NCBI GenBank assembly: GCA_031291435.1
Contig: JARLJC010000137.1
Location: 1 to 48,795 of the forward strand
Direction: 5' to 3'
From: Alphaproteobacteria bacterium
Lineage (GTDB): Bacteria > Pseudomonadota > Alphaproteobacteria > UBA9219
DNA: 48,795 nt
Below are positions 17,455-48,795 of the stretch, piece after piece; within the stretch, counting starts at the first letter, position 1; each line of letters opens with the position of its first letter. The position numbers and the translations under genes are program-made. The notes beneath the pieces are model-generated. The model did not search any database and was not told the origin of the DNA. It worked only from the letters and a program-made list of their open reading frames with translations.

Positions 17455-17462
17455 CAGGCCTC

Positions 17463-20458: not shown

Positions 20459-20462
20459 ACGA

Positions 20463-27066: not shown

Positions 27067-27185
27067 GGGCGTTCCTTACTTACTGGCTGATGCTGGCCCG
27101 ACGGGAAATTTGCAGGCACTAAAGCGGGCGGGGTACCGGGTGAATCGTTTTGTCGGCTAACATTACCCTATGTTCAGGAAAATGA

Positions 27186-29112: not shown

Positions 29113-29415
29113 TCAGTTCAGGGTGAACATATTCTCGAAGCGGGCGAGGTCGAACATCTTCTTGACCTGCCCGGTGGCGCCGCCGATGACCAGTTTTTTA
29201 TGGTTCTTCTCGGCGGCGTCGAGCGCCAGCAGCAGCATGCCTAGCCCCGCCGAGTCGATGAAATCCATCTTCTCGACATTGAGCACGACCTGCTGGATAT
29301 CGCCCGCATTCATTTTGTCGATCACGTCGCGGAATCCCAGATGGTCGGGGAAAGTGAATTTGCCGCTCATATGCACGTCGAGGGTGCCGTGCGTAAGTTC
29401 CTGCCTGATATCCAT
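29113..29415 (-). CDS. STAS-domain protein, anti-sigma-factor-antagonist type
   Basis: A 100-residue single STAS domain, the fold used by SpoIIAA/RsbV partner-switch proteins. The sequence around DFIDSAGLGMLLLAL holds the conserved Ser that is phosphorylated by RsbW-type kinases. ATG 29415 follows AGGAGG by five bases; a GTG two codons earlier is less likely. It is the last gene of the chemotaxis operon, 12 bases after a chemoreceptor-like gene. The phosphorylatable Ser and the RsbW-like ATPase at 44172-44669 make a partner switch feasible. The actual partner is not known. Confidence 0.88.
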   Translation of the reverse strand: MDIRQELTHGTLDVHMSGKFTFPDHLGFRDVIDKMNAGDIQQVVLNVEKMDFIDSAGLGMLLLALDAAEKNHKKLVIGGATGQVKKMFDLARFENMFTLN

Positions 29416-29427
29416 GTTCACCTCCTG

Positions 29428-32263: not shown

Positions 32264-33108
32264 CAGCGAACCTTGCGATAGATGGTGCGGCCCAGCAGTT
32301 CGAAGCGGTCGCTGACCTTGAACAGATTTTCCGAATGGCCGATATAGAGCCAGCCCTGCGGCTTGAGCAGATTGGCGATGCGAGCAAAAAGACCGGCTTG
32401 GGTCGGCTTGTCGAAATAGATCACGACATTGCGGCAGAACACCGCGTCGAACAGCCCCTGCATCGGCCATGCTTCGAGCAGATTGAGCGGTTTGAAGGTG
32501 ATCATTTCCTTGAGAATATCCGACATATGGATATCGCCTTTTGTGTCCTGCATGACGTCACCTCGGTAGGTTTCGGGAATTTTTTCATATTGCTCGGCTG
32601 GGTAGCTTCCTTCGGCCCCGGTCGCCAGCATATTGGTGTCGATGTCGGTCGCCAGAATGCGGGCGTCCCATTTGGTCAAATCCCTGAGCGCGCCCTTCAC
32701 CGTCATGGCGATGGAATAAGGTTCCATGCCGGACGAGCAGCCCGCCGACCAGATGCGCAATTTGCGCGGCTGCGGCGGCTGCGCGGCCAGCGGCGCCAGA
32801 ACCGCATCGCGCAGATGATCGAAATGGTGCTTCTCGCGGAAAAAATGAGTGAGGTTGGTGGTCAGCGCGTTGACGAGATTGCCGACTTCGCCGTTATCGG
32901 CCCGCACCAGATCGCAATAATCGGTGAAATCATTCAGCTTGAGCGCGCGCAGACGCCGCACAAGCCGCGAATAGACCATGTCCTTCTTGTGTTCGGCCAG
33001 CACGATACCGGTGCGATCAAAAGCCAGCCCCGCGAGATAACGGAACTGCTGATCGGTGAAAGTAAATTCGCGCTCCTCCTCGCGCCGCAGCATTTCCGGC
33101 ATGGGCAT
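32263..33108 (-). CDS. cheR: Chemotaxis protein methyltransferase
   Basis: A 281-residue SAM-dependent methyltransferase that methylates glutamates in chemoreceptors. An N-terminal helical domain (FTFTDQQFRYLAGLA) precedes the SAM domain with SAGCSSGMEPYSIAM, ATDIDTNMLA and DAVFCRNVVIYFD. A Met replaces the usual Glu in the GxEPYS motif, which is a mild deviation. It lies 23 bases after the chemoreceptor gene and just before cheD. The upstream receptor ends in a possible CheR tether. Confidence 0.95.
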   Translation of the reverse strand: MPMPEMLRREEEREFTFTDQQFRYLAGLAFDRTGIVLAEHKKDMVYSRLVRRLRALKLNDFTDYCDLVRADNGEVGNLVNALTTNLTHFFREKHHFDHLRDAVLAPLAAQPPQPRKLRIWSAGCSSGMEPYSIAMTVKGALRDLTKWDARILATDIDTNMLATGAEGSYPAEQYEKIPETYRGDVMQDTKGDIHMSDILKEMITFKPLNLLEAWPMQGLFDAVFCRNVVIYFDKPTQAGLFARIANLLKPQGWLYIGHSENLFKVSDRFELLGRTIYRKVR

Positions 33109-33131
33109 TCCTCCGCTTTCCCGACAATCCC

Positions 33132-36100
33132 TCAGAATTCTTTCCAGTCCTTGTCGTAGCCGTGCTTCTCACCAATGGCGGCCTTGGTCACACGTTCGCT
33201 ATTGGCGCCCTGTTTGGGTTTGCCGGGCATCAGCGCCGCCGCTAATTTCGCCGACGGTTTTTGCGCAGGCGATGTTTTCGGTTTGGCGGTCGCGACGGGA
33301 GAAGTCTCGGCTTCATCCTGTTCGTCGAGAGTGAAGAAGCTCATCAGCTGTTCCAGCGCGCGCGCCTGCTCGACCATTGACGTCGCAGCCGCCGTGTTTT
33401 CTTCAACCAGGGCGGCGTTCTGCTGGGTGACTTCGTCCATCTGGGTGATCGCCGTGTTGATCTCGTCGATGCCGGTGGCCTGTTCCTGACTGGCGCGCGC
33501 GATTTCCGAAACGATGTCAGACACCTGCTTGACCGAGCCGACGATGTTTTTAAGCGTCTCGCCCGCCTGATTGACCAAAGTCGCGCCGGTTTTCACCTGC
33601 TGCGCGCTTTCGTTGATCAGGGTCTTGATCTCCTTGGAGGCCGAGGCCGAACGTCCGGCCAGCGAGCGTACTTCCGACGCTACCACGGCGAAGCCCTTGC
33701 CGGCATCCCCTGCCCGCGCGGCTTCCACGGCGGCATTCAACGCCAGCAGATTAGTCTGGAAAGCGATTTCGTCGATGACGCCGATGATGTCGGAAATCTT
33801 TTGCGAAGATTTCTCGATGCTGCCCATCGCCGAGACCGCGCTTTCGACCACCTGGCCGCCGTCGCTCGCGACCTGATTGGCCTTGGCCGAGAGTTCGTTG
33901 GCGTTGGCGGCGTTGGTCGAGTTCTGCTTGACGGTGCCGGTAATCTCCTCCATCGACGCCGCGGTTTCTTCGAGCGACGAAGCCTGTTCTTCCGTACGCT
34001 GCGACAGGTCGGTGCTACCCGAGGCGATTTCGCCCGAGGCGGAATTGACCGCCTTGGCCGACTCGATGATCTGCTTGACCATTTCGTACAGTTTATCGAC
34101 CGTGGCGTTGACCGCTTTCTTGATGTCGGCGAAGGTGCCTTTGTATTCCAGATTCATTTTCTGGGTCAGGTCGCCCGCCGCGATGCCGGTCAGAACCGTA
34201 ACCGCTTCGGCCATGCCTTTTTCGTTTTCGGTACGCGTCATGACCATCTGCGTCACATCGCTGGCGGTTTTCACCACCCGCACGACTTTGCCTTTCAAAT
34301 CCATGATCGGATTGTAGGAAGCGTTGATCCATACTTCCTTGCCGCCTTTGCCGATGCGCTTGAATTCGCCGCTCTGCGCTTCGCCGCGATTCAGATCTTC
34401 CCAGAATTTGCGGTAATCGGCGCTGGCGCGGTAATCGGCTTCAGCGAACATGCTGTGATGCTTGCCCTTGATTTCGTCGAGCGTGTAACCCATTACCGCA
34501 AGGAAATTCGGATTGGCGCTGATGACGGTGCCATCGGTCTGGAACTCAATGATCGCCTGCGAGCGGTTGAGCGCCTCGGTCAATCCTACCGCGGTGCCGT
34601 CCTGCCATTCCACCACGGTGCCCAGTTTTTCGTTATTGGCCCCGAAGATGGGATTAGCCACGAGATTAAACGAACGCCCCCCGACCTGTATCGAGGTTTT
34701 GAAAGGGCCGGTCAGTTTTTCCAGCATGTTGCGCTGATGCGCCGGATTTTTATGGAAGATGTCGATATTGCTGCCGATCAGGCTTTTCACGCTGAAACGC
34801 GGCAGGTCTTTCTGAATATCCTTTTCCGCTTCGTCGAGAAATCCGGTCAGAGCCTCGTTGATATAACTGATATTGAACTGGGCATCGGCCATCATGACAT
34901 TGGCCGTGCAGGTATCGAGCGCCAGCTTCAACCGCGCGCCGTTCATGCTTTCCATCTTGGCCTTGGTGATTTCGGTGGCGTATTTGACCACCTTCACGAC
35001 CTTGCCGTTGGGGTCGAGGATCGGGTTATAGGAGGCCTGCAGCCAGACTTCCTTGCCGCCTTTGCCGATGCGCCGATATTCCCCGGCCTGATAATCGCCG
35101 CGATTGAGCCTGGCCCAGAAATCGCGATAGTCGCCGCTGTTGGCATAGGCGGGATCGACGAATATGCTGTGATGCTTGCCCTTGATTTCATCGAGATGAT
35201 ATCCCGTGGCCTCGAGAAAATTATCGTTGGCGTCGACGACGGTGCCGTCGAGCTTGAATTCGATCACCGCCTGCGATTTTTTGATGGCGTTGATCTGCCC
35301 CGAATAATCGGCGACCGTTGTTTTGATGTCGTTCAAGGCCTGCGCCAAACTGCCGACTTCGTCCTGGCGGTCCATGCCGTCGATGGTCATTTTATAATTG
35401 CCTTGCGCCAGATCACCCGAAACTTCGGTTGACCTTTGCAATGGCTTGATAAAAGAGCGGATCACCAGCGCCGCCAGAACCAGGCCGACAAGGGTAAGGG
35501 TCAAAGCGAGGCCGAGATGCCAGAAAACCGTGCCGCGTTCGTTGCCGATTCGGGTGTTGAGCAGGCGATCGAATTCATCATCACCCGCGGCCATGAAAGA
35601 AAACAACCGGGGTTGCGCGACGCGCGCAGCGATGGCAAGCGCCGCATGATCGTTGCTTTGCAGCGCGCGCTGCATATCGGCCATGGCGGCGCCGACGGCC
35701 TGAACGGATTCCCCCAGTTGCGGCTGCATCGACCCGTCAGGATTGGCTTTGCCGGCTTTGGCAAAATCGGCCGCGAATAAATCGGCCGTCTCGTTGAGAT
35801 TATCGCGGGCCTCGGCATAAGCGATGGCATGTTCCTGTTTGTTATCGACTTCCATATCGGCGGCCGCTTCAAGAACGGCATCGATCCCCGCCGACAAAGA
35901 CGGCGCCTGATTCACCAGCATATCGCCGAGATAATAACTATCGGCATCGGGATCGAGCGTGATGTTGAAATTATCGGCAATCGCCCCGATCAGCATGCGC
36001 GTCTTGGCAGCGATCCCGGCGGCGTCTTTCCCTGCCGACGCCGTCTCTATTTTGTCATTGAGGTGACCGAGAACCTGCGCGACGTAACCCGTGGCCTGAT

Positions 36101-36353
36101 CGTTTTTCTGCCGGTCGGCCAGGGCGCGCCCGGCCTTTTGCAGCTCTTCCTTCGAGAAAGGCGTCACCCCTGCGGCCCTTAGAACGTCGTGCGCGACATG
36201 CATATAGCGCATGCCCTCGATTTCGCTCTGGGCAAATTGGATTTGTTCTTCGTGACCGATCACGAGAAAATAGCCGAGAAGAGCGACCGGCAGCATCATG
36301 ATGGCGGCGGCGGCGAAGATTTTCTTGGTGATCGAGAGATTGTTGAACTGCAT
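33132..36353 (-). CDS. Methyl-accepting chemotaxis protein with three PAS-like domains
   Basis: A 1073-residue inner-membrane receptor. A membrane helix at about 12-28 and another at about 285-305 enclose a periplasmic sensor domain of about 250 residues. A HAMP region follows. Then come a PAS domain near 365-480 ([21 protein letters not shown]), a PAS-like domain near 490-600, and a third PAS near 605-720 similar to the first. The signalling hairpin is near 790-1020 ([31 protein letters not shown]). The two similar PAS repeats look like an internal duplication. The C-terminus ends DWKEF, matching the xWxxF pattern of CheR/CheB-tethering pentapeptides such as NWETF. It lies directly between cheW and cheR. 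Confidence 0.93.
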
Positions 36354-36376
36354 GGGAAGTCTCCTGTGAGGGGGCG

Positions 36377-36886
36377 TTAAGCGGCTTGCGTGAGGACGGT
36401 ATCGATTTGCCTTGTGTCGAACAGATGATCGACGTCGAGCAGGACAACCATGCGGCTTTCGAGCGAGATAAGGCCGCCGATAAAGGCGGCTTCGGTCTTG
36501 CCGTCGGAAGTAGGCGCGGGTTTGATGGCGTCGGACATGACGTCAAGGATGTCGGACACGGCATCGACCAGAATGCCGATATTGCGTTCGCCCACCGCGA
36601 GAATGATGACCACATGCTTAGGCGTGGCCTCGGTGGCACCCTGATTGAGGCGGGTGCGGAGGTCGAAAATCGGGATGATGAGGCCGCGCAGATTCATCAC
36701 GCCGCGCATGAATTCGGGCGCGTTGGGCAGGCGGGTGGTTTCGGTCCAGCCCTTGATCTCGCGCACGGTCATGATATCGACGCCGTATTCCTCGCTGCCG
36801 ACGGTGAAGGTCAGGAATTGCCGCGCGGTGTTTTCCTGCGCCGCGGCTTTTTCGCTTTCGCGGGTTTTGTCGAAATTGTCGGCCAT
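36377..36886 (-). CDS. cheW: Chemotaxis coupling protein
   Basis: A 169-residue adaptor joining receptors to CheA. The SH3-like core reads [54 protein letters not shown] and a C-terminal LDVDHLF. The NLRG motif is intact. The first ~20 residues are charged and probably unstructured. It lies 20 bases downstream of cheA and 23 bases upstream of the receptor gene, all on one strand. Confidence 0.96.
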
Positions 36887-36906
36887 CGTTGTTCCTTTCC
36901 GCGGCT

Positions 36907-38907
36907 TTACGCCGCCTGCTTTCTGTCGGGCGCGGCAGGCGGATGCGCCTTCGCCAGATCGTTGATCTCGAGGATGAGCGCGACCATGCCGTCGCCAAGA
37001 ATGGTGGCGCCGGAAACGCCCGGCACCGGGTCGGCATTGGCTTCAAGGCTTTTGATCACGACCTGCTGCTGGCCGATCAGTTCATCGACGACGAGGCCGA
37101 GTTTTTCGTTATGACTTTCGACCAAAACCACAAGGGCTTTGCTGGGGTCGCTTTCGGCACCGGCGACGTCGAAGGTACGGGATAGATAAAGTACCGATAC
37201 GAATTCGCCGCGCACATTGATGACGTCGCTGTGGCCTTCGACATGCCGCACATCATCGGGTTTAGGACGCAATGTTTCGACGATGCTGGTGATGGGAATG
37301 ATATATTTTTCCGATCCGACGCGCACGATCATGCCGTCGAGAATGGCGAGGGTCAGCGGCAGCGAGATCGTGAAATGCGAGCCTTTGCCGGGATGGTTCT
37401 CGACGCGCACCGTGCCGCCCATGCCTTCGATATTGCGTTTGACGACATCCATGCCGACGCCGCGCCCCGATACATTGGTGACTTTCTCGGCGGTAGAAAA
37501 ACCCGCCATGAAGATCATGTTATCGATGTCGCCGTCGGAAGGATTGACGTCGGTGGCGACGAGATTCTTTTCGCGGGCCTTGGCCAGAACTCTTTCACGA
37601 TTGATGCCGGCGCCGTCGTCGCCGATTTCGATGACGATGCGGCCGCCGCGATGCTCGGCGGACAGATGGATGACGCCCTCCGTGGCTTTGCCGTTATCGG
37701 CGCGGGTTTCGGGCATTTCGATGCCGTGATCGCAGGAATTGCGGATCATGTGCATGAGCGGATCGGACAATTGCTCGATCACGGTTTTGTCGACTTCGGT
37801 ATTCTCGCCCTTTGTTTCTAGGCGGATTTCCTTGCCGAGCTGGGCCGAGATGTCGCGCACGATGCGCGGCATGCGCGAGAAAATCGATTTGACCGGCTGC
37901 ATACGCACCGACATCACCGCTTCCTGCAATTCGCGCGTATGCTGCGAGAGTTCGTCGATGCCGCGCAGCAGGCCGGAAAATTGCTCGGCCGGAAAATCGC
38001 GCGTCTGCGCGCGCAGCATGGCTTCGGTAATCACAAGTTCACCGACCATATTGACGAGGCGATCGACTTTTTCGAGATCGACGCGGATCGATGTCGCGGG
38101 CGCGGGGCGGGCGGGCGCTTCATCACCGGCGGCGGTGGGCGGGCTATCCTTGCGCGGTGGCGCGAGGATGGCTGGCGCAGGATTTTCGCCGGCAATTTTC
38201 AGATCGCAATGATCTTCAACGAACTCGAAAACTTCGCGAATGGCGGCTTCGTCGCGCGCCGTGCGCAGATCGATTGTCCAGCGCAAAAAGCAGGCGGCGG
38301 CATCGAGGTCAGCGAGAAGCGGGACCTGGCTGCTGTCGGCAAGGATCGTCGCGGTGCCGAGGCGCGCCAGCTCGCGCAAAATCAGCAAAGGCTCGTTACC
38401 GGTGGCGAATAAAGTGGGGTGCGGCGCGAAATCGATATGCCAGAGGCGTTCCGGCGCGGCATCCGTAGCGGGTTCCTCGTCGAACAGCCCATAGGCGGCC
38501 TCCGCCCCTGCCACCGCCGGGCCGGCGCCCGCGAAACGTTCGAGTTCGGCCTTGATATCGGACCCCAGATTATCGGGCGGGCGCTGGCCATCACGCGCCG
38601 CGGTAACCATTTGCGTCACGACATCGGCAGATTTCAGGAGCAGATCGACCGCCTCGCGCGAGGGCGCCACCTTGCCTTCGCGCAGGACGTCGAGCAGGGC
38701 TTCGAGCGCATGGGTAAAAACGGTAATGAAATCGAAACCGAACGCGCCCGACCCGCCTTTGATCGAATGGGCGCAGCGGAAAATCGCATTGAGCGCCTCG
38801 GCATCCGCCGCTTCGACATCGAGCACCATCAGGCGTTCTTCCATCTCGCCCAGAAGCTCGAAGCATTCGGTAATATAGGTCTGCTTGAACTGGTCGAGCT
38901 CGGCCAT
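36907..38907 (-). CDS. cheA: Chemotaxis histidine kinase
   Basis: A 666-residue kinase. The P1 phosphotransfer domain carries His47 in CAHSIKGGSGAFGF. A variable P2-like region follows, with Pro/Ala linkers at about 240-270. P3 dimerisation begins at about 275 (IRVDLEKVDRLVNMVGELVI). The ATPase P4 contains RNSCDHGIEMPE, IGDDGAGINR and GRGVGMDVV. The CheW-like P5 covers the last ~130 residues. It autophosphorylates in response to receptors and passes phosphate to CheY and CheB. The start lies two bases beyond the cheY stop, within a compact operon. Confidence 0.97.
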   Translation of the reverse strand: MAELDQFKQTYITECFELLGEMEERLMVLDVEAADAEALNAIFRCAHSIKGGSGAFGFDFITVFTHALEALLDVLREGKVAPSREAVDLLLKSADVVTQMVTAARDGQRPPDNLGSDIKAELERFAGAGPAVAGAEAAYGLFDEEPATDAAPERLWHIDFAPHPTLFATGNEPLLILRELARLGTATILADSSQVPLLADLDAAACFLRWTIDLRTARDEAAIREVFEFVEDHCDLKIAGENPAPAILAPPRKDSPPTAAGDEAPARPAPATSIRVDLEKVDRLVNMVGELVITEAMLRAQTRDFPAEQFSGLLRGIDELSQHTRELQEAVMSVRMQPVKSIFSRMPRIVRDISAQLGKEIRLETKGENTEVDKTVIEQLSDPLMHMIRNSCDHGIEMPETRADNGKATEGVIHLSAEHRGGRIVIEIGDDGAGINRERVLAKAREKNLVATDVNPSDGDIDNMIFMAGFSTAEKVTNVSGRGVGMDVVKRNIEGMGGTVRVENHPGKGSHFTISLPLTLAILDGMIVRVGSEKYIIPITSIVETLRPKPDDVRHVEGHSDVINVRGEFVSVLYLSRTFDVAGAESDPSKALVVLVESHNEKLGLVVDELIGQQQVVIKSLEANADPVPGVSGATILGDGMVALILEINDLAKAHPPAAPDRKQAA

Positions 38908-38909
38908 GC

Positions 38910-39284
38910 CTAGCTCCCCGCCGGACAGACTTTTTTGACGATCTCGACCAGTTTTTCAGGATTGAACGGCTTGACGATCCAGCCGGTAGCTCCCGCGGCC
39001 TTGCCTTCTTCTTTCTTGCTGCCGCCGCTTTCGGTGGTGAGCATGAGGATGGGCGTGTATTTATATGCGGGGTTGGCGCGCAGCGCGCGGATAAGGCCGA
39101 AGCCGTTGAGGTTGGGCATGTTGAGATCGGTAATCACCGCGTCGATCCTGACGCCGTTAAGGGCGTTGAGCGCGGCCTGGCCGTCTTCGGCTTCCATCAC
39201 TTCGTAGCCCGCGCTTTTCAGCGTGAAAGCCACCATTTCGCGCATGGTTTTGGAATCGTCGACCGCCAATATCCGTTGCACCAT
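38910..39284 (-). CDS. cheY: Single-domain chemotaxis response regulator
   Basis: A 124-residue receiver with the acidic pocket Asp9-Asp10, phospho-acceptor Asp53 (VITDLNMP), the Thr switch in LMLTTES and the conserved Lys in IVKPFNPEK. It probably binds the flagellar switch when phosphorylated. A longer frame is rejected because the ATG at 39284 has GGGAGAAG upstream, and the extension would run through the STAS gene out of frame. It precedes cheA by two bases. Confidence 0.93.
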   Translation of the reverse strand: MVQRILAVDDSKTMREMVAFTLKSAGYEVMEAEDGQAALNALNGVRIDAVITDLNMPNLNGFGLIRALRANPAYKYTPILMLTTESGGSKKEEGKAAGATGWIVKPFNPEKLVEIVKKVCPAGS

Positions 39285-39300
39285 CTTCACTTCTCCCGTT

Positions 39301-39615
39301 TCATATGGCTGGTTCGAGCAGGCCAGCGAGACCGGCATCGGCAAAGCAGCGGGCAAGGGCGTCGCGCGCGCCGGTGATGCAGACATCGCCGCCCTGCGCC
39401 GCCAGAGATTTTTTAAGCGCGAGAATGATCTGCAATCCCGGCGTGGCAATATTTTCGACCTGCGCCGCGTCGAGCGTGAGCCGGGTGCGCGGCGGGAACG
39501 GCAGCTCCTTCAGGCCGTCGGCGATGATTTCGGCGGTTTCGATTGTCATCAGCGCCGGCAAAGCGAAGGTGAACAGGTTCGGCGCGTCTGGGGGAGTGGA
39601 GGATTCGTCAGCCAC
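39301..39615 (-). CDS. STAS-domain protein at the head of the chemotaxis operon
   Basis: A 104-residue single STAS domain. The core reads TRLTLDAAQVENIATPGLQIILALKKSLA. Where antagonists of the SpoIIAA type usually have an Asp-Ser pair, this protein has ATPG, so phosphorylation may be absent or occur on the Thr. It could act as a constitutive binding partner, or resemble STAS proteins of lipid transport (MlaB type). It is the first gene before cheY, 16 bases away. The structured repeat copy 2 lies about 110 bases upstream in its leader. Confidence 0.82.
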   Translation of the reverse strand: MADESSTPPDAPNLFTFALPALMTIETAEIIADGLKELPFPPRTRLTLDAAQVENIATPGLQIILALKKSLAAQGGDVCITGARDALARCFADAGLAGLLEPAI

Positions 39616-39725
39616 GGGAAATTACCTGAGATGAGGAGAACGGAATCTCTAGGTAGGCTTTCATGTTTAAAAATAATTCTATTTGCCTCCTACCCGGATG
39701 AGTAATTTCCGGGGGAATGCAACCG

Positions 39726-39798
39726 GTCCGCGATCGTTCATCAATGAAGCGCCTTGCGTTTCATTGATGAACGTGAATCGCCGAACTTAAATAAAAAC
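39726..39798 (-). repeat. Structured repeat, copy 2 (leader of the chemotaxis operon)
   Basis: A 73-bp element with the same ends as 9177-9248. The middle is different but still folds: a perfect 14-bp inverted repeat CGTTCATCAATGAA (39735-39748) with 39760-39773, topped by CGC-AAG-GCG. In the outer stem GTCCG has become GTTCG on the minus-strand RNA, replacing a C-G pair with a U-G wobble, so pairing is kept only if the RNA is made from that strand. It lies between the HTH-receiver gene and the STAS/chemotaxis operon, reading toward the latter. Confidence 0.65.
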
Positions 39799-39889
39799 GG
39801 AGCATGACTCAGTCAATGAATACAGGAATAACCATGCGTATCGTCGATACCGCAAGATGTGTCTTTCGCAAGATATGGCAGGAGATGGA

Positions 39890-40603
39890 TCAGGCGCAGG
39901 GCAAGGCGACGGTCTTGGCCCAGTAAGTGACCAGCGTGTCGATCGCCTGTTCATATTCGCGCGGATCGACTGATTTCTGGATGAAGCCAGCCGCGCCGTG
40001 GCGATAGGATTCCATCATATCCTTGACGCTGATGCTGTTGGTCAGAATGACCACGGGCAGGCCCATCGTCTTGGGATGCTTTTTGATCGATTTCAACAGA
40101 TCGATGCCGTTGAGGCGCGGCAGGAACAGATCGAACACGACGATGTCGGGCAGTCTCTGGCCGCATTTGGCTTCGTAATTCTGAAGCAGGTCCATGACCG
40201 CTTCGGGATCGTGCGCGGCATGCAGTTCGGCATGGCCGCCCTGCGCGGCGAGCGCGTTAGTGAAAGCGATGACTTCGGACGCGCGGTCTTCGACCAGCAG
40301 GATATGCAAAGCGCGGTTGCGTATTTTCTGGATGATGTTGGATTCGATGCGCTTGCCGATGGTTTCTTCGAGCGCCAGCCCTTCATAGAAATACCCCATC
40401 GGCACGTTCAGGATTTTGGCGAACAGCAGAAGCTTCCCCGCCGAAACATGGCTGACCCCGGTTTCGTATTTCTGCATCTGCTGGTAAGAAAATCCCATCA
40501 GTTCGGCCAGTTTCATCTGGTTGAGCTTGAGCAGTTTGCGGCGCTCCCGGATGCGGCGGCCGATATGGACATAGACGGGGTCCTGCTGTTCCATAAGGCT
40601 CAT
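39890..40603 (-). CDS. HTH (XRE-type) DNA-binding protein fused to a response-regulator receiver
   Basis: A 237-residue protein with an N-terminal Cro/CI helix-turn-helix (about 15-70: IGRRIRERRKLLKLNQMKLAELMGFSYQQMQKYE) and a C-terminal receiver (about 100-225: ILLVEDRASEVIAF, phospho-acceptor Asp in VVFDLFLPRLNG, VILTNS, Lys in IQKSVDP). This domain order is the reverse of most response regulators. ATG 40603 is chosen because GGGAG lies upstream; an internal ATG three codons later is also possible. The 247 bases upstream, shared with the divergent hybrid kinase gene, are AT-rich and contain a small palindrome (CTATCAGCGATAG) that could be an operator. The cognate kinase may be that neighbour. 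Confidence 0.85.
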   Translation of the reverse strand: MSLMEQQDPVYVHIGRRIRERRKLLKLNQMKLAELMGFSYQQMQKYETGVSHVSAGKLLLFAKILNVPMGYFYEGLALEETIGKRIESNIIQKIRNRALHILLVEDRASEVIAFTNALAAQGGHAELHAAHDPEAVMDLLQNYEAKCGQRLPDIVVFDLFLPRLNGIDLLKSIKKHPKTMGLPVVILTNSISVKDMMESYRHGAAGFIQKSVDPREYEQAIDTLVTYWAKTVALPCA

Positions 40604-40850
40604 CGGGGGAGACTCCCTGCGGGAAAAATGCGGAAAATCATTAAAAGCAGATTCCCGAGGAAATACAACCATAGATTGTATATCTAGAATATCGAATGCC
40701 TATGTGTGCATTATAAGTGTCTTATTTATATGGCAAGGTAGTTGAATTAGGGTTGTAAATACCTATCAGCGATAGATACACCTTTCATGCGGCGGTAAAG
40801 TTTTCCCCGCATGCTCGGGGCCTGCAAATTCCTGTGTCCTTCGGCGTCCC

Positions 40851-42971
40851 ATGTCGGCAATCCCCTGGCAAACAGCTCCCCTGCCGCCTGATGAACTCCG
40901 GCGGCTGGCCGAACTGCATAGCTATCAAATCCTCGACACACCGCCAGACATCGTGTTCGACCGGCTGACGCGCATGGCGGCGCAGCGTTTCGCCACGCCG
41001 ATCGCGCTGGTATCGCTGATCGACCGCGACCGGCAATGGTTCAAGTCGCGGCACGGCATCGACGTCACGGAAACGCCGCGCGATCTCGCTTTCTGCGCCC
41101 ACGCCATCCTCGGCGACGAGGTGCTGGTGGTGCGCGACGCGACATCCGATCCGCGTTTTGCTGGCAATCCTTTGGTGGCGGGGGCGCCCGATATCCGCTT
41201 TTACGCGGGCGCGCCGCTGATCACCAGAAACGGCCACAAGCTCGGCACCATGTGCGTCATCGACAAAGTGCCGCATCCCGGATTCAGCCCGGACGACGCC
41301 CGGGAACTAGCCGATCTCGCCGCCATCGCCATCGACGAAATGGAATTGCGCACGGCATTGCAGCGCATCCGCCATGATCTCGACGCCCTGCGCCAGGCGC
41401 AGCGGGCCATGGAGAACGCGCGCGACGAGGCCGAGCACGCGACCTACGAAAAATCGCAGTTCATCGCCACCATCAGCCACGAATTGCGCACGCCGATGAA
41501 CGGCATTCTCGGTATGGCGTATCTGCTGGGCGATACGCCGCTCGACAAATTGCAGCGCGAATATATCGAGACCATCAATCATTCGGCGCAGAATCTGCTG
41601 CTGCTGATCAACGACGTTCTGGATATGTCGAAAATAGAAGCGGGCGAACTGATTGTCGAGCGCGAACACTTCGACGTGAAGAACGATTTCGCGCAGACGG
41701 TCAAACTGCTTTATCCGCTGGCGCAGAAAAAAGGCAACGAGCTTTCGTACCATATCGAGGCGGAAGTGCCGGACACGCTGATCGGCGATCAGGGGCGTTT
41801 CGCGCAAATCGTCACCAACCTGGTCGGCAACGCGGTCAAATTCACCGAGAACGGCAAGGTCGAAGCGCTGTTGCGTTACAACCCCGCCGATCGTTCGATT
41901 TTCTGCGAAGTCAAAGACACCGGCATCGGCATTCCCGAAGCCAAGCACGGCGCCATTTTCGAGAAATTCACGCAAGGCGACGTTTCGATCACGCGTAAAT
42001 ATGGGGGCACCGGCCTTGGCCTCGCCATCACCAAAAAACTGGTCAATATGCTGGGCGGCGAGATCGGGTTCGAAAGCAAGGAAGGCAAGGGTTCGCGCTT
42101 CTGGTTCACCCTGCCGATTTCGCCCGGCAACCGCAGTTCGCATGAAAATACCGGAACGCCCGTCCCCGCCGCCCCCAATGGCCGCCTGCGCGTGGGCGAA
42201 GCGCGCGTGCTGATCGCCGAAGATCATCCGGTCAATCAGGTTTTTCTTTCCGCGCTGCTGAAGAAATTTGGCTTTACCGCCATCGACGTGGCCGAGAACG
42301 GGTTGCGCGTTCTCGACAGAATTCAGGCGGGCGGCCGTTATGACGCGATTTTCATGGATTGCAAAATGCCGGAGCTGGATGGTTACGAAACCACCATGCT
42401 GCTGCGCGCGCAGGAACGCAAAACCGAGCCCCCCGCCCACATTCCCATCATTGCCCTGACCGCCAATGCGCTGGCGGGCGACCGCGAAACCTGTTTCGAA
42501 GCGGGCATGGACGAATATATCACCAAACCGGTGGACCCGGAACGGCTCAAGGAAGCCTTGCGGCGCTGGTTCCTGTTCGCCACCGATGCGGAAATGCCGC
42601 TCGCTTCCTCGCCCCGGGCCGAGCCCGCCACGCCGCCGCTGACCTTCGACCGTCTGGAGATGGTCGCCGACAGCGATGCGGAAAAAACCCGCATGCTGGC
42701 CCTCTTTTTCCGGATGGCGGACGAGGCCGCCGAAATTCTGGAAAAAACCCGCCGCGGCGAAGAGTTCGCGCAATGGAAGAACGCCGCCCACGGCCTCAAA
42801 GGGGCGGCGGCCAATCTCGGCATGGGCGAACTGGAAAAACTCTGCCGGCGCTGCGAAGAAGCCGGTTCTTCGACTTATGACCAGCGCGGCGAGCTAACCC
42901 GCGCCATCCGCGACGAAGTCGCGCGCATCGGAAATTATATCGCAGACCACAAACCATCCTGGGTGACCTGA
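40851..42971 (+). CDS. Soluble GAF-domain hybrid histidine kinase
   Basis: A 706-residue cytoplasmic kinase with no membrane helix. A GAF domain spans about 20-160 (FDRLTRMAAQRF, FYAGAPLITRNGHKLGTMCVID). Next come a coiled coil, the HisKA region with the phospho-accepting His in FIATISHELRTPMNG, and HATPase motifs NLVGNAVKFT, DTGIGIP and GGTGLGLAI. A receiver with FMDCKMPELDG lies at about 445-570, and a C-terminal Hpt domain has AAHGLKGAAANLG. All four phosphorelay parts are therefore in one protein. The next gene starts two bases later, so the receiver-phosphatase is probably its target. The signal sensed is unknown. Confidence 0.92.
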   Translation: MSAIPWQTAPLPPDELRRLAELHSYQILDTPPDIVFDRLTRMAAQRFATPIALVSLIDRDRQWFKSRHGIDVTETPRDLAFCAHAILGDEVLVVRDATSDPRFAGNPLVAGAPDIRFYAGAPLITRNGHKLGTMCVIDKVPHPGFSPDDARELADLAAIAIDEMELRTALQRIRHDLDALRQAQRAMENARDEAEHATYEKSQFIATISHELRTPMNGILGMAYLLGDTPLDKLQREYIETINHSAQNLLLLINDVLDMSKIEAGELIVEREHFDVKNDFAQTVKLLYPLAQKKGNELSYHIEAEVPDTLIGDQGRFAQIVTNLVGNAVKFTENGKVEALLRYNPADRSIFCEVKDTGIGIPEAKHGAIFEKFTQGDVSITRKYGGTGLGLAITKKLVNMLGGEIGFESKEGKGSRFWFTLPISPGNRSSHENTGTPVPAAPNGRLRVGEARVLIAEDHPVNQVFLSALLKKFGFTAIDVAENGLRVLDRIQAGGRYDAIFMDCKMPELDGYETTMLLRAQERKTEPPAHIPIIALTANALAGDRETCFEAGMDEYITKPVDPERLKEALRRWFLFATDAEMPLASSPRAEPATPPLTFDRLEMVADSDAEKTRMLALFFRMADEAAEILEKTRRGEEFAQWKNAAHGLKGAAANLGMGELEKLCRRCEEAGSSTYDQRGELTRAIRDEVARIGNYIADHKPSWVT

Positions 42972-42973
42972 CC

Positions 42974-43345
42974 ATGCCTGAAACCGCCGCCGAACTGGCC
43001 CGCAAGATTCTGACCTCACCGATCCTGATCGTCGAGGATAACGAGATCAACCGCGCCTTCCTCGACAAGGCCCTGCGCAATCACGGCTTCGTCAATCTGA
43101 TGATGGCGGCAAGCGCCGAGGAGGCGCTCGACGTCATGGACAGGTTCCAGCCGGAAATCGTGCTGCTCGACATCATCATGCCGGGCGGCATGGACGGGTT
43201 CGAATGCTGCGCCGCTATTCGCAAACAGGAACGCTACCGCGAATTGCCGATTCTGATTCAGACCTCGATCACCGAGCCGGAGCTGCGCGTCAAGGCCTTT
43301 GCCATGGGCGCGACCGATTTCGTCAGCAAGCCGGTTTACCCCTAG
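42974..43345 (+). CDS. Receiver domain, 5' part of an interrupted receiver-SpoIIE phosphatase gene
   Basis: A 123-codon receiver domain: ILIVEDNEINRAF, phospho-acceptor Asp in VLLDIIMPGGMDG, the Thr position in LIQTSIT, and the Lys in FVSKPVYP. It ends with TAG at 43343-43345, before the last receiver helix. The reading frame continues unbroken after this stop into the phosphatase at 43361. The residues after the stop (ELCARVRVHLEKR) are exactly what would finish the receiver's last helix. The gene is therefore either inactivated by one nonsense base, or read as a truncated receiver. TAG is used as an ordinary stop elsewhere in the window. The next start would be GTG 43361. Confidence 0.75.
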   Translation: MPETAAELARKILTSPILIVEDNEINRAFLDKALRNHGFVNLMMAASAEEALDVMDRFQPEIVLLDIIMPGGMDGFECCAAIRKQERYRELPILIQTSITEPELRVKAFAMGATDFVSKPVYP

Positions 43346-43360
43346 GAACTGTGCGCGCGC

Positions 43361-44161
43361 GTGCGCGTGCATCTGGAGAAACGCCAGTCGCTGCGCGCGC
43401 TGCGCCTCTATAAAAGCCGGATCGAAATGGAGCTGGAAAGCGCGCGGCAATTGCAGCAGGCGATTTTGCCCGGCATGGAAGAAATCGAGGATGTCGAGCG
43501 ACGCTGCCAGCTTGATATCGCTTCCTATTTCCAGCCTTGCTCGGAAGTGGGCGGCGATTTCTGGGGCATGAAGACTTTGTTCCCGCATCAGACCGCCTTG
43601 TGGCTGGTCGATTTTTCGGGGCATGGGGTGGCGGCGGCGCTGAATTCCTTTCGCCTGCAGGCGCATCTCAAGGAATATTCGACCCTCGCCGCGCGGCCGG
43701 GCGACTATCTTTCCTATCTCAACGACAAGCTGCTGTCGCTCCTGCTGCGCGGGCAGTTCGCCACCATGTTCTACGGCATCGCCGACACGCAGGGCAGCCG
43801 GTTATTCTATGCCTGCGCCGCGGCGCCGCACCCCATCATCCTGCGGGCCGACACCGGCAAAGCCGAGATACTGGACGGCGGCGGCAATCTGCTCGGCATC
43901 GGCATGCATCTTTACCCAACGCAGACAACGCGCTTCGCGCGCGGCGATCTGCTGCTGCTTTACAGCGACGCCCTTATCGAAACGCCCGACGCCAAAGGCG
44001 ATTGTCTGACCGAGCAGCATATTATGGAGCTGCTGGAAAAATATCGCGGCGCTTCGGCGGCGGCGGTCAAAGAAATTCTGCTCGACGCCTTCAACGCCCA
44101 CGCCGTGGGCAGCCCGCGCGATGACCTCACCATCGTCGTGTGCATACGATCGGATTCGTGA
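43361..44161 (+). CDS. SpoIIE/RsbU-type phosphatase, 3' part of an interrupted receiver-phosphatase gene
   Basis: A 266-codon frame in the same register as the upstream receiver. The PP2C-type phosphatase domain carries LQQAILPG, SEVGGDFWGM (metal-binding Asp), VDFSGHGVAAAL, YACAAAPHP, LLLYSDALIETP and SPRDDLTIVV. It would dephosphorylate a STAS antagonist, as RsbU and SpoIIE do. If expressed separately, initiation at GTG 43361 would need re-initiation after the TAG; only a weak AGGA 13 bases upstream is visible. More likely the original product was one receiver-linker-phosphatase of about 395 residues. Confidence 0.78.
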   Translation: MRVHLEKRQSLRALRLYKSRIEMELESARQLQQAILPGMEEIEDVERRCQLDIASYFQPCSEVGGDFWGMKTLFPHQTALWLVDFSGHGVAAALNSFRLQAHLKEYSTLAARPGDYLSYLNDKLLSLLLRGQFATMFYGIADTQGSRLFYACAAAPHPIILRADTGKAEILDGGGNLLGIGMHLYPTQTTRFARGDLLLLYSDALIETPDAKGDCLTEQHIMELLEKYRGASAAAVKEILLDAFNAHAVGSPRDDLTIVVCIRSDS

Positions 44162-44171
44162 GGGCGCCGCC

Positions 44172-44669
44172 ATGCCGGACATGCAAAAACATGTGTTTAC
44201 CTTCAGGGACATGAATGATGCGCATAGCCTGTCGCTGACCCTCGCCCACTATTTTCCCAGGCCCGAGCAGTTCGCGCCGGGCATTTACGAGCTCCTGCTC
44301 AATGCCGTCGAGCATGGCAATCTCGGCATCAGCCTCGACGAAAAAAGCGATCTGCTGCGCCGTAATCTATGGCACGAGGAAATCAAACGCCGCCAGGCAT
44401 CGCCCGAATTCAGCAGCAGGCAGGTCGAGGTGGTTCTTGAAAAAGACCCGGAGCAATGCGTCCTGACCATCGCCGATCAGGGCAAGGGATTCCCCTGGCG
44501 CGATTACATCGGCCGCCTGGTCGAAGGCAAGCGCCCCAATGGCCGCGGTTTATGGATCGCCCTTAACAGCAAGTTCGACCGCGTGATGTTCAACCAGGCC
44601 GGCAACAAGGTGACCTGCATCGCGCGTTATGGCCATTGGTCAACGCGTGACAAGCCGGAGCAGCCCTAG
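44172..44669 (+). CDS. RsbW-like anti-sigma-type ATPase (HATPase_c_2)
   Basis: A 165-residue GHKL ATPase domain. The N-box is ELLLNAVEHGNLGIS, the G1 box IADQGKGFPW and the G2 box GRGLWIALNSKFD. Such proteins phosphorylate STAS partners or bind sigma factors. An ATG at 44172 with GTGAGGG upstream is chosen; a longer frame overlaps the phosphatase. Placed ten bases after the phosphatase, it completes the enzymatic half of a partner switch. The STAS proteins at 39301-39615 and 29113-29415 are the nearest candidates for substrate. No sigma factor gene is in the window. Confidence 0.82.
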   Translation: MPDMQKHVFTFRDMNDAHSLSLTLAHYFPRPEQFAPGIYELLLNAVEHGNLGISLDEKSDLLRRNLWHEEIKRRQASPEFSSRQVEVVLEKDPEQCVLTIADQGKGFPWRDYIGRLVEGKRPNGRGLWIALNSKFDRVMFNQAGNKVTCIARYGHWSTRDKPEQP

Positions 44670-44674
44670 CCCGT

Positions 44675-45451
44675 TCAGGCGATGCCCATGGCCCTACGAA
44701 TGCCGGTCGCCGAAATGGCCTGCAATTCAGGAGTCAGGTCGATGCGTTCAATGCTGTATCCGACATCGCGCCCGTAAAAGATATTGGTGATGTTGGGGAT
44801 GCTGACGACTGTGATCTGGTCCATATATTCGCCCAACATTTCCTCGATCCGCGCGCGAATGAAGGAAAATCCGAAGGGATTCTTGGCATTGGTGTTTTCA
44901 GCATCGCGCACAGCAATACAGGCTTGCCCCACGCGCTCGATCCCCTCGATGATCAGGGCTTTGTGGCCGTCATGGAAAGGCTGGTAACGCCCGACAAAAA
45001 GCGCGGTCGGCCGGCGCCAGTCAAACCCCTGCCCCGGCGCTTGCAAAAGCTTGGCGATCTGGGCGGCATGAAACACGGCATTCTGTTCGATAACCAGATA
45101 ATCGACATGTTTGGGTTCTTCGAACATGGCTTCTGTATCAGCATAAGGCGTCGGCTGCCCGGTTTTAAGATAGACCGTGTACGCATCGCCGAAAGCCTTG
45201 CGGGTTTCCGCAGTCGGGCAAACGAAATCGGCTACTGCATATTGCCCAGTCTCGGTCACGCGGTCGCAGAGCCAGCCCATGCGGCGCGCCTGCTCGATGC
45301 GATCTTCGCGGCTGAAGCCGAGATCTTTGTTGATGTTGGCGCGCACTTCGTCAGCGTTGAAATGCACGGCGCGGATATGTTTCTTGAGTTCAGTCGCCAA
45401 AACAGTTTTGCCGGCCTTGGGCAGGCCGAGAATGAGGATCTTCTTTGTCAT
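44675..45451 (-). CDS. APS-kinase-like domain fused to a nucleotidyltransferase
   Basis: A 258-residue bifunctional protein. Residues 1-150 resemble adenylyl-sulfate kinase (CysC): P-loop GLPKAGKT, then FNADEVRANINKDLGFSREDRIEQARRM. From about 165 a nucleotidyltransferase of the HxGH type follows: LFVGRYQPFHDGHKALI, and ISATGIRRA as the ISxTxxR motif. The kinase would make PAPS from APS if it is a true CysC. A CysC-like kinase in Campylobacter capsule synthesis (Cj1415) instead acts on a CDP-phosphoramidate, so the substrate is not certain. The neighbouring sulfotransferase favours PAPS. ATG 45451 is chosen at the start of the P-loop domain; the ribosome site is weak. It is divergent from the sulfotransferase, 219 bases away. 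Confidence 0.82.
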   Translation of the reverse strand: MTKKILILGLPKAGKTVLATELKKHIRAVHFNADEVRANINKDLGFSREDRIEQARRMGWLCDRVTETGQYAVADFVCPTAETRKAFGDAYTVYLKTGQPTPYADTEAMFEEPKHVDYLVIEQNAVFHAAQIAKLLQAPGQGFDWRRPTALFVGRYQPFHDGHKALIIEGIERVGQACIAVRDAENTNAKNPFGFSFIRARIEEMLGEYMDQITVVSIPNITNIFYGRDVGYSIERIDLTPELQAISATGIRRAMGIA

Positions 45452-45670
45452 ACAAACCGTTTCTTGACTTTGGAGGGGAAAACAGGAATTTATAAACTCG
45501 AGGCGGGCGCGATCCGACGAAACCAATGCATATTCACGACCGCGTGAATCGGCTGAATTGTCCGAAGATTAGGCCATTCGCCGATACTCATTGTCAATCC
45601 TGCCCGCGCCAAAAAACGATTTTGCCCCTCCCCACTATCGATAAACACTTCCCAATCATTATGAAACCTT

Positions 45671-47137
45671 ATGCAAGAATCCGCTAGCCCCATCGTCCAT
45701 CTTTTTGTCGGCACCCACAAAACAGGCACGACATCGATTCGCTGGATGCTCGATTTCTACGCTGATCTGTTCACCCATTACGGCTATCATATTCCGCGCA
45801 AGGGATGGACCCACTATATCGATAATGTCTATAATGGTGGCCACAACAATGTGGCGTGGGAAATTGCAGCCGGGCGCCCCATCATTCCCGAATATGGCGG
45901 CCTGACCGACCTTGTGCAGGAAATACGCGGCATGCCCGACCGGCAGCACATTGTTTTCAGCGAAGATTTCGATCATGTCCGCCCCCAGCATATGGCAAAG
46001 CTGAAAGAGGCGTTCAGCGATTTCGATGTGCATGTGATTATTTTTATCCGCAATCAGGCAGACTGGCTGGCCGCCTATTACGCCGAAGCCCAGAAATGGT
46101 TTCATCAGGACAATTTTGACGCGTGGTTCGCATCACAATTTGAAGCCGACCACCGGCTTGACCTGCACGCTTTGTGTCAATTATGGGCGGATTCGTTCGA
46201 CGCCATAACCATTCGCCCGTACGAACAAATTAAATCCCGCGTCTTCGATGCTTTCCTTAAATGCTGTCATGCGCCCGCCGAAATGCGCGATGCGCTGACC
46301 AGCCGCGCGCTGCCCATGGTCAATCCCACGCCGGGCGATTTTCCGCTTGAGCTGATCCGCCACACCTCGGGCATCGCCAAAAGAGAAAATGTACCTTCCG
46401 CTTATTATGCACGCTTTGGAATGCCCGTCGCTCTTCTTGCCGCGCAACGCCTCGACCTCTATTTTCAGAAACGCTCACCGCTGACCGAGGAAACCGCCAA
46501 GATACTATTTGCCTTTATGCAAGAGAAGAACCGCCTATTGGCCGATCGCTTCGGCCTCGCGCTGGGGCCGGAATATCTGCACCCGTCATTGCCCGTTTCC
46601 AGGCCCGAAGTATCGCCCCCCATCGATATGGATCATCTGGCGGAATCCGTCATGGCGATCTGCTGCGACATGACAACCGATCTCTCGCTCAGACTGCGCA
46701 AGGTCGTCAACCAATATCAGGGGCCTGACCATGCCCCCGTCATCGACGAATTAACCCGCATTGTCGATTTGCTGTATCCATGGCCGCAGACTGACGAGGC
46801 TGCCGGACATTTGCTCAATGAATTGCTGGCCAATATTCTCGGCCTGCCGGCTTCAGGGCTTTGCCTCGAAAGCAATGCGGAAGGCGGAGTCGCGCTCTAT
46901 CTGGTCGAAGGGTGCACGCGGGAAGTGCGCAAAATGGATAAAGACGAATGGGCATCGTTGATGCGCGTAATTTACCAGCGCGCCCTTATGAACGTGACGG
47001 TGATGGATTTCCCCAAGGAAGGCTGCCTTGTGCTCGACCAGGAAGGCAAAATTTCCGCCTTCCGCGTGCTCAGCACATCGTCTGGAACCGGTACTGTCTC
47101 CTTCATCAAACCTCGTTCGCCCGACTGGGGTTTGTAA
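45671..47137 (+). CDS. Sulfotransferase-family protein
   Basis: A 488-residue protein. The 5'-phosphosulfate-binding loop reads FVGTHKTGTTSIRWML at the N-terminus, and VIIFIRNQADWLAAYYAE forms the 3'-phosphate-binding region, as in PAPS-dependent sulfotransferases. The core fold covers about 1-250. The C-terminal ~200 residues are unassigned and have no membrane helix. It would transfer sulfate to a hydroxyl of a surface glycan or lipid. The divergent APS-kinase-like gene would supply PAPS. No clear ribosome site precedes the ATG. The catalytic base cannot be named from sequence alone. Confidence 0.78.
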   Translation: MQESASPIVHLFVGTHKTGTTSIRWMLDFYADLFTHYGYHIPRKGWTHYIDNVYNGGHNNVAWEIAAGRPIIPEYGGLTDLVQEIRGMPDRQHIVFSEDFDHVRPQHMAKLKEAFSDFDVHVIIFIRNQADWLAAYYAEAQKWFHQDNFDAWFASQFEADHRLDLHALCQLWADSFDAITIRPYEQIKSRVFDAFLKCCHAPAEMRDALTSRALPMVNPTPGDFPLELIRHTSGIAKRENVPSAYYARFGMPVALLAAQRLDLYFQKRSPLTEETAKILFAFMQEKNRLLADRFGLALGPEYLHPSLPVSRPEVSPPIDMDHLAESVMAICCDMTTDLSLRLRKVVNQYQGPDHAPVIDELTRIVDLLYPWPQTDEAAGHLLNELLANILGLPASGLCLESNAEGGVALYLVEGCTREVRKMDKDEWASLMRVIYQRALMNVTVMDFPKEGCLVLDQEGKISAFRVLSTSSGTGTVSFIKPRSPDWGL

Positions 47138-47196
47138 TAAAATTCACATGCTGATACGCACGTGGCTGCATCCGAATCGTTGACACTACCCCCGAT

Positions 47197-48291
47197 ATGC
47201 CTAGTGTTAAGAATTGTTGCTCCTTCCCTGTGTCAAACGAGATGCAAGTGATCGCCCATTGCCCGATATGCATGAGTGATGCCTTTATCAGCCACGGCAA
47301 AAGATCGGCGCAAGGCAACCTGAATTTCTATGCGCAATTCGTTCCCAACCCCATCGACCGTTTCGACCGCGACATCCATGAATGTCTTCAATGCGGGATG
47401 CAGTATATATACCCCATGTACGAGAACGGCGATCTTGCGGTTCTCTACGATTCCGAAGGCTATCAGCGTTTCCGCAACGCCATCAGTAAGGCAGCCCTTG
47501 CGACTGCCGCGAATGCCGACGCGAACAAAATCGATTATCTGAATTACATCCTCGAAAGGTCTGCGGCGCTTGGCCTCGCGCGGCATCTCGATACCCACCG
47601 TCAGAAACATAAGGGGCGGGCGGCGCGCTTACTCGACATCGGCAGCGGAGAAGGTCACGAACTGCACGCTTTTTCGGCCATGGGCTTCGATGTCACCGGC
47701 ATTGATCTCAGCGATCCGCTGATCGCCGAAGTCAAACGCACTTACGGCCATGAAGTTCGCAAGATCGCTCTCGAAGATATGGACACGCGCGAGAAGTTCG
47801 ACGTCGTCACCGCGTTCCACCTTATTGAACACCTGAAAGACCCGCACGCGCTGTTCGCCAAGGTCAGGGATCTGCTCAACCCCGACGGTATCTTCCTTGT
47901 CGAAACACCGGTGGCCGAAGATGGCGGCCTAACCGCACAACGATTCCGCGACATTTACCACACGATGTTTTTCGATCATTTCTCGCTGGCCCTGCTGGCC
48001 GCCAAAAACGGCTTCATCCCGTTGCGCATGACACACCGCCATTTTCATGCGGGAACTTATTTCCATTCCTACATGACGATGGTTTTTCAGTATAACCCCG
48101 TTTTCCACGCGATGTTCGGCCAATTCGAAACAGTCGCCATTCTATGGATGAAGTCGATTTTATCGACGTTGATCGAAGATGCCCGCGATTGGGGCCGCAA
48201 CGATCTGCGCTATCGACACAAGCTGGGGGCCGAACCCATCAGGTTTCCGACGCTCGCAACGGCCGCATCAGAAATCAAGCAGGCGGGCTAG
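47197..48291 (+). CDS. SAM-dependent methyltransferase with N-terminal zinc-ribbon
   Basis: A 364-residue protein. Two Cys pairs (CPIC near 22 and CLQCG near 63) form a zinc ribbon of the kind found in sugar C-methyltransferases. The Rossmann domain contains RLLDIGSGEGHEL (SAM binding), VTGIDLS, and FDVVTAFHLIEHLKDP. VETPVAEDGG and DHFSLALLAAKNGF follow. Start choice is uncertain: ATG 47197 opens the frame, but ATG 47242 (MQVIAHCPIC) begins right at the zinc ribbon and may be the real one. It follows the sulfotransferase by 59 bases, so both probably tailor the same glycan. A GC-rich hairpin lies after the stop. Confidence 0.82.
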   Translation: MPSVKNCCSFPVSNEMQVIAHCPICMSDAFISHGKRSAQGNLNFYAQFVPNPIDRFDRDIHECLQCGMQYIYPMYENGDLAVLYDSEGYQRFRNAISKAALATAANADANKIDYLNYILERSAALGLARHLDTHRQKHKGRAARLLDIGSGEGHELHAFSAMGFDVTGIDLSDPLIAEVKRTYGHEVRKIALEDMDTREKFDVVTAFHLIEHLKDPHALFAKVRDLLNPDGIFLVETPVAEDGGLTAQRFRDIYHTMFFDHFSLALLAAKNGFIPLRMTHRHFHAGTYFHSYMTMVFQYNPVFHAMFGQFETVAILWMKSILSTLIEDARDWGRNDLRYRHKLGAEPIRFPTLATAASEIKQAG

Positions 48292-48315
48292 TGGCGGGTG
48301 GATGCGACGGGGGCC

Positions 48316-48334
48316 GTGCGCCTCTTTGGCGCAC
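48316..48334. other. Perfect hairpin after the methyltransferase gene
   Basis: GTGCGCC (48316-48322) and GGCGCAC (48328-48334) pair around TCTTT. No T-run follows on either strand, so rho-independent termination is uncertain. It lies about 45 bases from the CCA end of the tRNA fragment and could be the old terminator of that tRNA on the minus strand. Confidence 0.4.
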
Positions 48335-48377
48335 ATTATAAAGTTCACCCCATGTCAGGAAGGTCTTGCCAAAAGCG

Positions 48378-48422
48378 TGGTGGGTGCTACAGGGATTGAA
48401 CCTGTGACCCCTACCGTGTGAA
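48378..48422 (-). other. 3' fragment of tRNA-Val(CAC); likely attachment site (att)
   Basis: Read on the minus strand, the 45 bases give an anticodon loop TTCACAC (anticodon CAC, valine), the 3' anticodon strand GGTAG, a five-base variable loop, a complete T-arm ACAGG-TTCAATC-CCTGT, acceptor strand AGCACCC, discriminator A and CCA. The 5' half of the tRNA is absent: the bases beyond 48422 do not fold as a tRNA. A tRNA 3' end of this kind is the usual duplicated core left by integrases. An open reading frame across it (ending GATGIEPVTPTV) is a translation of the tRNA and not a gene. Confidence 0.8.
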
Positions 48423-48518
48423 CGCTGAGATCTATAGAGAACTATATGTATATCAAAGCGTTATGGCGCATCAAACGTCGCCAAATGCCGTCTCGTGCAA
48501 GCTTATACTCACACATAA

Positions 48519-48654
48519 CTCGCACAAAAAGTTAGAACGAAAAAATTTGAACGAAATGATGCCGATGACGTTGATTTCACAGCGCCAACAGTTCTAGCAA
48601 AGCAAATGGAGTTTTTTAACCATATGGGCTTCTACCGCACACGCCGCGCCCGTA
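48519..48654 (+). pseudogene. Possible gene remnant cut by the IS element
   Basis: A frame without stop runs from 48519 into the IS end at 48655, giving about 45 residues (including DADDVDFTAPTVLAKQ and MEFFNHMGFYRTRR) that look protein-like. It has no convincing start and stops only inside the element. It may be the remains of an island gene interrupted by insertion. The base composition is AT-richer than the rest of the window. I do not recognise the family. Confidence 0.25.
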
Positions 48655-48674
48655 TTAGGGTTTGGACTCATAAA
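48655..48674 (-). repeat. Terminal inverted repeat of an IS5-family element
   Basis: TTAGGGTTTGGACTCATAAA marks the end of the element, immediately beyond the transposase stop codon. A TTA precedes GGGTTTGG; IS427-type IS5 elements usually duplicate a TNA trinucleotide, so TTA is a plausible target site. The repeat matches the right terminal repeat of the miniature element at 80-249 at about 15 of 18 positions. Confidence 0.65.
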
Positions 48675-48795
48675 TCATAGCCAGAAAGCGACGATGGAGG
48701 CCAAGAAGACGGCAGCCATGAAGGTGTATGGCTGTCGGTCGTAGCGGGTGGCAACACGGCGGAAGTCTTTGAGGCGGCAGAAGAAGCGTTCGACG
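48675..48795 (-). CDS. IS5-family transposase, C-terminal end (partial)
   Basis: The last 39 codons of a DDE transposase run in from the window edge and stop with TGA at 48675-48677. The sequence VERFFCRLKDFRRVATRYDR, then TFMAAVFLASIVAFWL, matches the conserved C-terminal E-R-x-F-x-R-x-K-x-F-R-R-x-x-T-R-Y-D region of IS5/IS427-type transposases, including the catalytic Glu. The remainder lies beyond the window. It ends just inside the terminal repeat, as usual for this family. Confidence 0.85.
   Translation of the reverse strand, partial: VERFFCRLKDFRRVATRYDRQPYTFMAAVFLASIVAFWL

Follow-up and report, generated by a model that had tools for sequence, protein, structure and literature searches.

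Why does a contig of an alphaproteobacterial genome end shortly after half of a tRNA gene, and what did that half once belong to? The window analyzed here is the entire contig C364 (48,795 bases), which stops inside an insertion sequence (IS) because the contig ends there. Its source genome (G000) is an assembly of 2.84 Mb in 373 contigs, with an estimated completeness of 99% and an estimated contamination of 6.5%. A first-pass annotation had claimed that the right end of the window holds only the 3′ half of tRNA-Val(CAC), with its CCA end facing chromosomal genes on the left, and had predicted a genomic island on the right with an intact tRNA-Val(CAC) at its far end. Our results indicate that the fragment very probably marks the far attachment site of an element with a tyrosine integrase in tRNA-Val(CAC), and that this element would be a ~4-kb remnant from a family of mobilizable elements.

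The tRNA fragment and its boundary

The 3′ half of tRNA-Val(CAC), comprising 45 nt from loop position 32 to the CCA (canonical positions 32–76), occupies positions 48378–48422 on the minus strand; its CCA end points left and its 5′ side points right. When the contigs of the source genome were searched with this sequence, a single further exact copy, 52 bases long, was found on contig C255 (3598–3649, minus strand). The exact repeat runs 7 nt beyond the CCA (48371–48377), and the displaced attachment repeat therefore covers positions 48371–48422 on the minus strand, 52 nt in total, with 52/52 identical (100% identity, E = 8e-21). ARAGORN found no whole tRNA in the window, and the right window end gave no tRNA match in Rfam, as expected for a half tRNA. 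The repeat and the ARAGORN result confirmed that only the 3′ half is present with its CCA facing left. The repeat begins with base 32, the first of the anticodon loop; the start of this loop is a classic integrase crossover site. A sharp boundary at 48422/48423 is marked by a drop in GC content, which is 0.579 in the whole left part of the window and 0.544 in positions 45001–48370, versus 0.438 in positions 48423–48655; the AT-richer sequence reported from 48423 onwards thus reflects a real step in composition.

The intact tRNA gene and the integrase lie on contig C255

The predicted intact tRNA-Val(CAC) was detected by ARAGORN at C255:3605–3679 on the expected minus strand, and the repeat covers its 3′ half plus 7 nt downstream. 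From the start of C255 to this tRNA, the order is a truncated part of an IS transposase, two truncated back-to-back regulator-like genes, a relaxase, an excisionase-like gene and a tyrosine integrase. The integrase (C255:2512–3552; PF00589, 6e-21) ends ~50 bp from the intact tRNA, and its residues R200, H284, R287, and Y319, which are invariant in all seven aligned sequences, are likely the catalytic residues. The excisionase-like gene matches an excisionase-family domain (4.7e-7), and the relaxase is MobA/VirD2-like (PF03432, 3e-21), with its tail replaced by the end of DUF736. The integrase, the excisionase-like gene and the MobP-type relaxase adjoin the intact tRNA on the side facing the fragment. 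Moreover, one acceptor-stem base is private to the fragment and the intact copy: both read TGTAGCACC, as against TGTCGCACC in the Val(CAC) copies of the relatives compared. This argues that C364 and C255 come from one organism. The first-pass annotation had proposed to look for the intact gene, a matching 45-bp direct repeat and an integrase next to one end; all of these were found on one other contig of the same genome, the repeat being exact over 45 nt inside the tRNA and 52 nt overall.

The element end, the insertion sequence and the joining of the two contigs

The AT-rich element terminus abutting the fragment (48423–48530), a probable integrase arm-site region, recurs at other island ends. 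It matches the element end G020:C177:2112–2269 at 81–85% and the ends in G004 and G010 at 76–78%, and in these three genomes this type of end adjoins a tRNA 3′ fragment. At E ≤ 0.01, matches were found in 5 of 144 genomes, the source genome counted. This homology to other island ends upholds the placing of the island on the right, on the 5′ side of the fragment. Internal element sequence (48571–48658) matches C201:24415–24501, part of a sister insertion, at 88–89%.

Positions 48658–48795 on the minus strand are the terminal 138 bp of an IS5-like element that is interrupted where the contig stops; they comprise the inverted-repeat end GGGTTTGGACTCAT and the 3′ end of the transposase gene. The criteria applied for IS5-like elements were a DDE transposase, terminal inverted repeats and a YTAR-type target duplication. 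The transposase C-terminus and one IS end with a TA flank were seen on four contigs, and this end, present also on C236, C276, and C168, is identical on all four, including C364. The opposite IS end was not found; three near matches to the GGGTTTGGACTCAT-type end were considered as the missing end and rejected, since they turned out to be short non-autonomous elements. The partial IS reported at the right end is therefore present, but its use as support for an island does not hold, because the IS is a multicopy latecomer and no evidence for island identity. At positions 83–246 of the window lies a short non-autonomous element that has an internal palindrome and is bounded by IS-like ends (GGGTTCGGACTCAT ... 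ATGGGTCTGAACCC); two further copies of it are on C93 and C235.

Joining 48658–48795 to C255:1–~175 gives one transposase frame (DDE_Tnp_1, 1.5e-8; DDE_Tnp_1_2, 4.6e-8), as the end of C364 and the start of C255 overlap by 19 nt inside the shared IS and the frame is preserved across the overlap. If the contigs are joined through their overlapping ends, the minus strand carries both the fragment, on the left, and the intact tRNA; the island would then measure ~3.95 kb with a direct join, or more if other contigs intervene. In favor of the join, the resulting order of genes, fragment – regulator (−) – regulator (+) – relaxase – integrase – tRNA, is the one found in the complete islands of G018 and G020. 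C364 and C255 are not bridged by any read or contig, and the join stays unproved, since the same IS end occurs on four contig ends (C364, C236, C276, and C168), each of which could precede C255. We thus infer both the direct join and the element size.

The left flank consists of accessory genes

The gene next to the fragment, outside the element, encodes a class I SAM methyltransferase (47197–48291, plus strand; Methyltransf_23, 2e-23), for which only distant matches (≤41% identity) were found, in 4 other genomes among the 31 searched. The gene at 29341–30660 matches two relatives, and the conserved NDK gene (28457–28879) lies 20 kb further left. Judging from these sequence comparisons, the genes directly left of the fragment are accessory and not conserved chromosome, the adjoining methyltransferase being patchy in relatives. 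The description of this flank as chromosomal went too far, but neither this nor the reassessment of the IS alters the main prediction. Also patchy among relatives is a second chemotaxis gene cluster (MCP, CheW, CheA) within positions 28900–48300, whose CheA has good matches only in G005, G006, and G013 and in three more distant genomes (G024, G028, and G033).

Among relatives that share the gene order, none offered an empty site matching the outer left flank, and the state before insertion was therefore deduced from the right flank only. In G007 (positions 1–470 of locus L082, on C107), the NDK gene lies ~40 bp from an unoccupied tRNA-Val(CAC), the other flank of which matches C255. The sequence upstream of NDK in G007 differs from that in the other relatives compared, suggesting a deletion there. 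This arrangement was not adopted as the original unoccupied state of the left flank, as NDK in G007 is without the upstream sequence that the window and the other relatives have kept. On the far side of NDK, the orthologue of the gene at 8115–9164 directly adjoins NDK in G003, G001, and G004, and ~19 kb separate the two in the window. The intervening block (9274–28382), which holds LeuA-like, glycosyltransferase, radical SAM, and ATP-grasp genes, looks inserted or rearranged.

Sister elements and the wider integrase family

Among the relatives, tRNA-Val(CAC) is an insertion hotspot, and the sister elements span 17–38 kb with restriction-modification and other cargo. In G018, 28.8 kb lie between the intact tRNA-Val(CAC) (C19:44316) and its fragment (73144), and the island carries genes for ArdC, a relaxase, NikA/MobC, HTH regulators, a type III restriction system, a DrmD-like helicase, and a LanC-like protein. 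On the same contig (positions 1087–1398 of locus L059, on C19), two tandem 5′ halves of tRNA-Val(CAC), 115 bp apart, stand before the intact gene; integration at the 3′ side does not explain this 5′-side repeat. G020 holds a tandem stack on C177, with the intact tRNA at 60037 and fragments at 39858 and 2112 (~20 and ~38 kb), and its inner island has, besides a type III restriction system, a candidate defence gene. The integrases of the tRNA-proximal islands of G018 and G020 are 65–67% identical to that of C255; in the outer island of G020, the integrase is more distant (~36–40% identical) and the end type is that of the window. A complete 17.4-kb element in G010, inserted at tRNA-Gly(GCC) with a 53-bp repeat starting at the anticodon loop, pairs the window-type end with an integrase of 66% identity and also encodes a DNA methylase together with a GHKL ATPase. 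Within the source genome itself, a sister insertion lies on C201 at tRNA-Val(GAC), with a 3′ fragment at 24234–24281, the intact tRNA at 29314–29389 and an integrase remnant of 195 aa (71–72% identical). An 88-bp stretch ~150 bp inside from its tRNA fragment is ~89% identical to window positions 48571–48658. The locus also suggests that tRNA-Val has served repeatedly as a hotspot for insertions with defence genes in these small alphaproteobacteria, a group that has received little study.

A scan of named public genomes with the integrase alignment yielded 53 loci, nearly all alphaproteobacterial, with close relatives including records named Micavibrio sp. A tRNA lies ≤600 bp 3′ of the integrase match at 34 of the 53 loci, in 34 of 34 cases on the opposite strand; these tRNAs comprise 28 Val, 3 Thr, 2 Pro, and 1 Gly. 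A phage or plasmid source of the integrase was not assigned, the closest such integrases all being <60% identical and ~36% among the best listed. We lean slightly towards the view that this alphaproteobacterial family harbors a not-yet-named family of mobilizable elements, in which one integrase subfamily inserts into several tRNA genes at their anticodon loop (mostly Val, but also Gly, Thr, and Pro), and whose members stack in tandem and carry ArdC, restriction-modification, and helicase defence genes; the element of the window would be a collapsed member.

Alternative readings of the fragment

One alternative is that more of the island lies between C364 and C255, that the four IS-ending contigs include island segments, and that the element exceeds 4 kb. 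The presence of the IS end on four contig ends and the 17–38 kb of the sister elements are in keeping with this, whereas the transposase frame is continuous over the 19-nt overlap, the joined gene order matches that of the relatives without a gap, and C236 and C276 carry tRNA-Met and tRNA-Ser, suggesting ordinary chromosome. We consider such a larger island possible, though unlikely. Somewhat less credence is due to a composite origin, in which two islands of the family once stood in tandem at tRNA-Val(CAC), the fragment ending the outer one and the C255 integrase belonging to the inner one, with the middle attachment site lost through an IS-mediated deletion. G020 carries exactly such a stack, its outer island has the end type of the window, and the IS sits between the two halves here. 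One element suffices, however, since G010 joins the same end type and the same integrase type in a single element, and a third copy of the fragment was not found in the genome. For the same reason, we rejected as a necessity the argument that the two end types among relatives mark different integrases and hence two islands here.

It is highly improbable that the fragment is a stand-alone tRNA decay product without an island, or that binning has mixed the contigs of two organisms. The fragmented assembly (373 contigs) and its contamination estimate would allow for this, but the 52-bp identity takes in non-tRNA bases and the private tRNA base, homologous element ends adjoin fragments in other genomes, and the IS end is identical on C364, C236, C276, and C168.

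Proposed history of the element

An attP that carries a tRNA 3′ half and recombines in the anticodon loop keeps a working tRNA on the integrase side and displaces the original 3′ half to the other end. In the single-element reading that we prefer, a tyrosine-integrase element would have recombined into the anticodon-loop region of tRNA-Val(CAC), swapping in its own tRNA 3′ half and so regenerating the intact gene now on C255, while the original 3′ half would have been pushed to the far end of the element, i.e., to window positions 48371–48422. The element would have come from the family seen in the relatives, with integrase, excisionase, ArdC, MobP relaxase, NikA/MobC, and variable cargo. Internal deletions and the IS5-like insertion may then have left ~4 kb, in which genes for mobilization and cargo are truncated or lost. 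What the sequence shows directly is the repeat together with the intact tRNA and the integrase, the element ends with their homologues, and the gene truncations. In the present copy, the integrase and excisionase-like genes are intact, the relaxase tail is replaced, and ArdC and MobC are absent. From the relaxase and its relatives, we infer that this copy once moved by mobilization; it is presumably immobile now, because the relaxase is damaged and ArdC and MobC are missing. Excision might still be possible, since the integrase and excisionase-like genes are open. More generally, tRNA-fragment logic at a contig end can correctly predict the content of another contig and is usable for ordering contigs.

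Comparison with known systems

The element is an ordinary and well-known kind of mobile element in a decayed state. The criteria applied for Islander tDNA islands were an intact tDNA and a displaced fragment with an exact repeat, the fragment on the 3′ side in the same orientation, an integrase inside, and a length of 2–200 kb. An intact tDNA and a displaced terminal fragment are present (52 bp, 100%), and the integrase lies inside (C255:2512–3552). Like these islands, the element has an intact tRNA gene, a 3′ fragment displaced to the 3′ side in the same orientation (if C364 joins C255), a tyrosine integrase inside, and an anticodon-centred crossover, which defines class A, the commoner class in Islander (2083 of 3919 islands; PMC4383910). 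Unlike them, it is spread over two contigs, small, and interrupted by an IS. It also resembles the integrative and mobilizable elements with MobP relaxases (PMC5704250) in its tyrosine integrase and tRNA 3′-end target, and in the MobP-type relaxase and NikA/MobC-like accessory protein of its relatives. The criteria applied for this kind were an own relaxase (or oriT) and integrase, and transfer by a helper conjugative system. The element encodes an integrase and a relaxase domain (PF03432) of its own, though the relaxase tail is the end of DUF736; it differs from those elements in that the relaxase of the present copy is truncated and ends in a foreign tail, and MobC and ArdC are missing. By description, it may also be likened to the islands of Micavibrio aeruginosavorus ARL-13 (PMC3189940), which bears the same genus name as the relative G018 (Micavibrio sp.). 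That genome has nine islands of 11–27 kb, four of them by tRNA genes and seven with phage-type integrases, and some carry mobilization genes.
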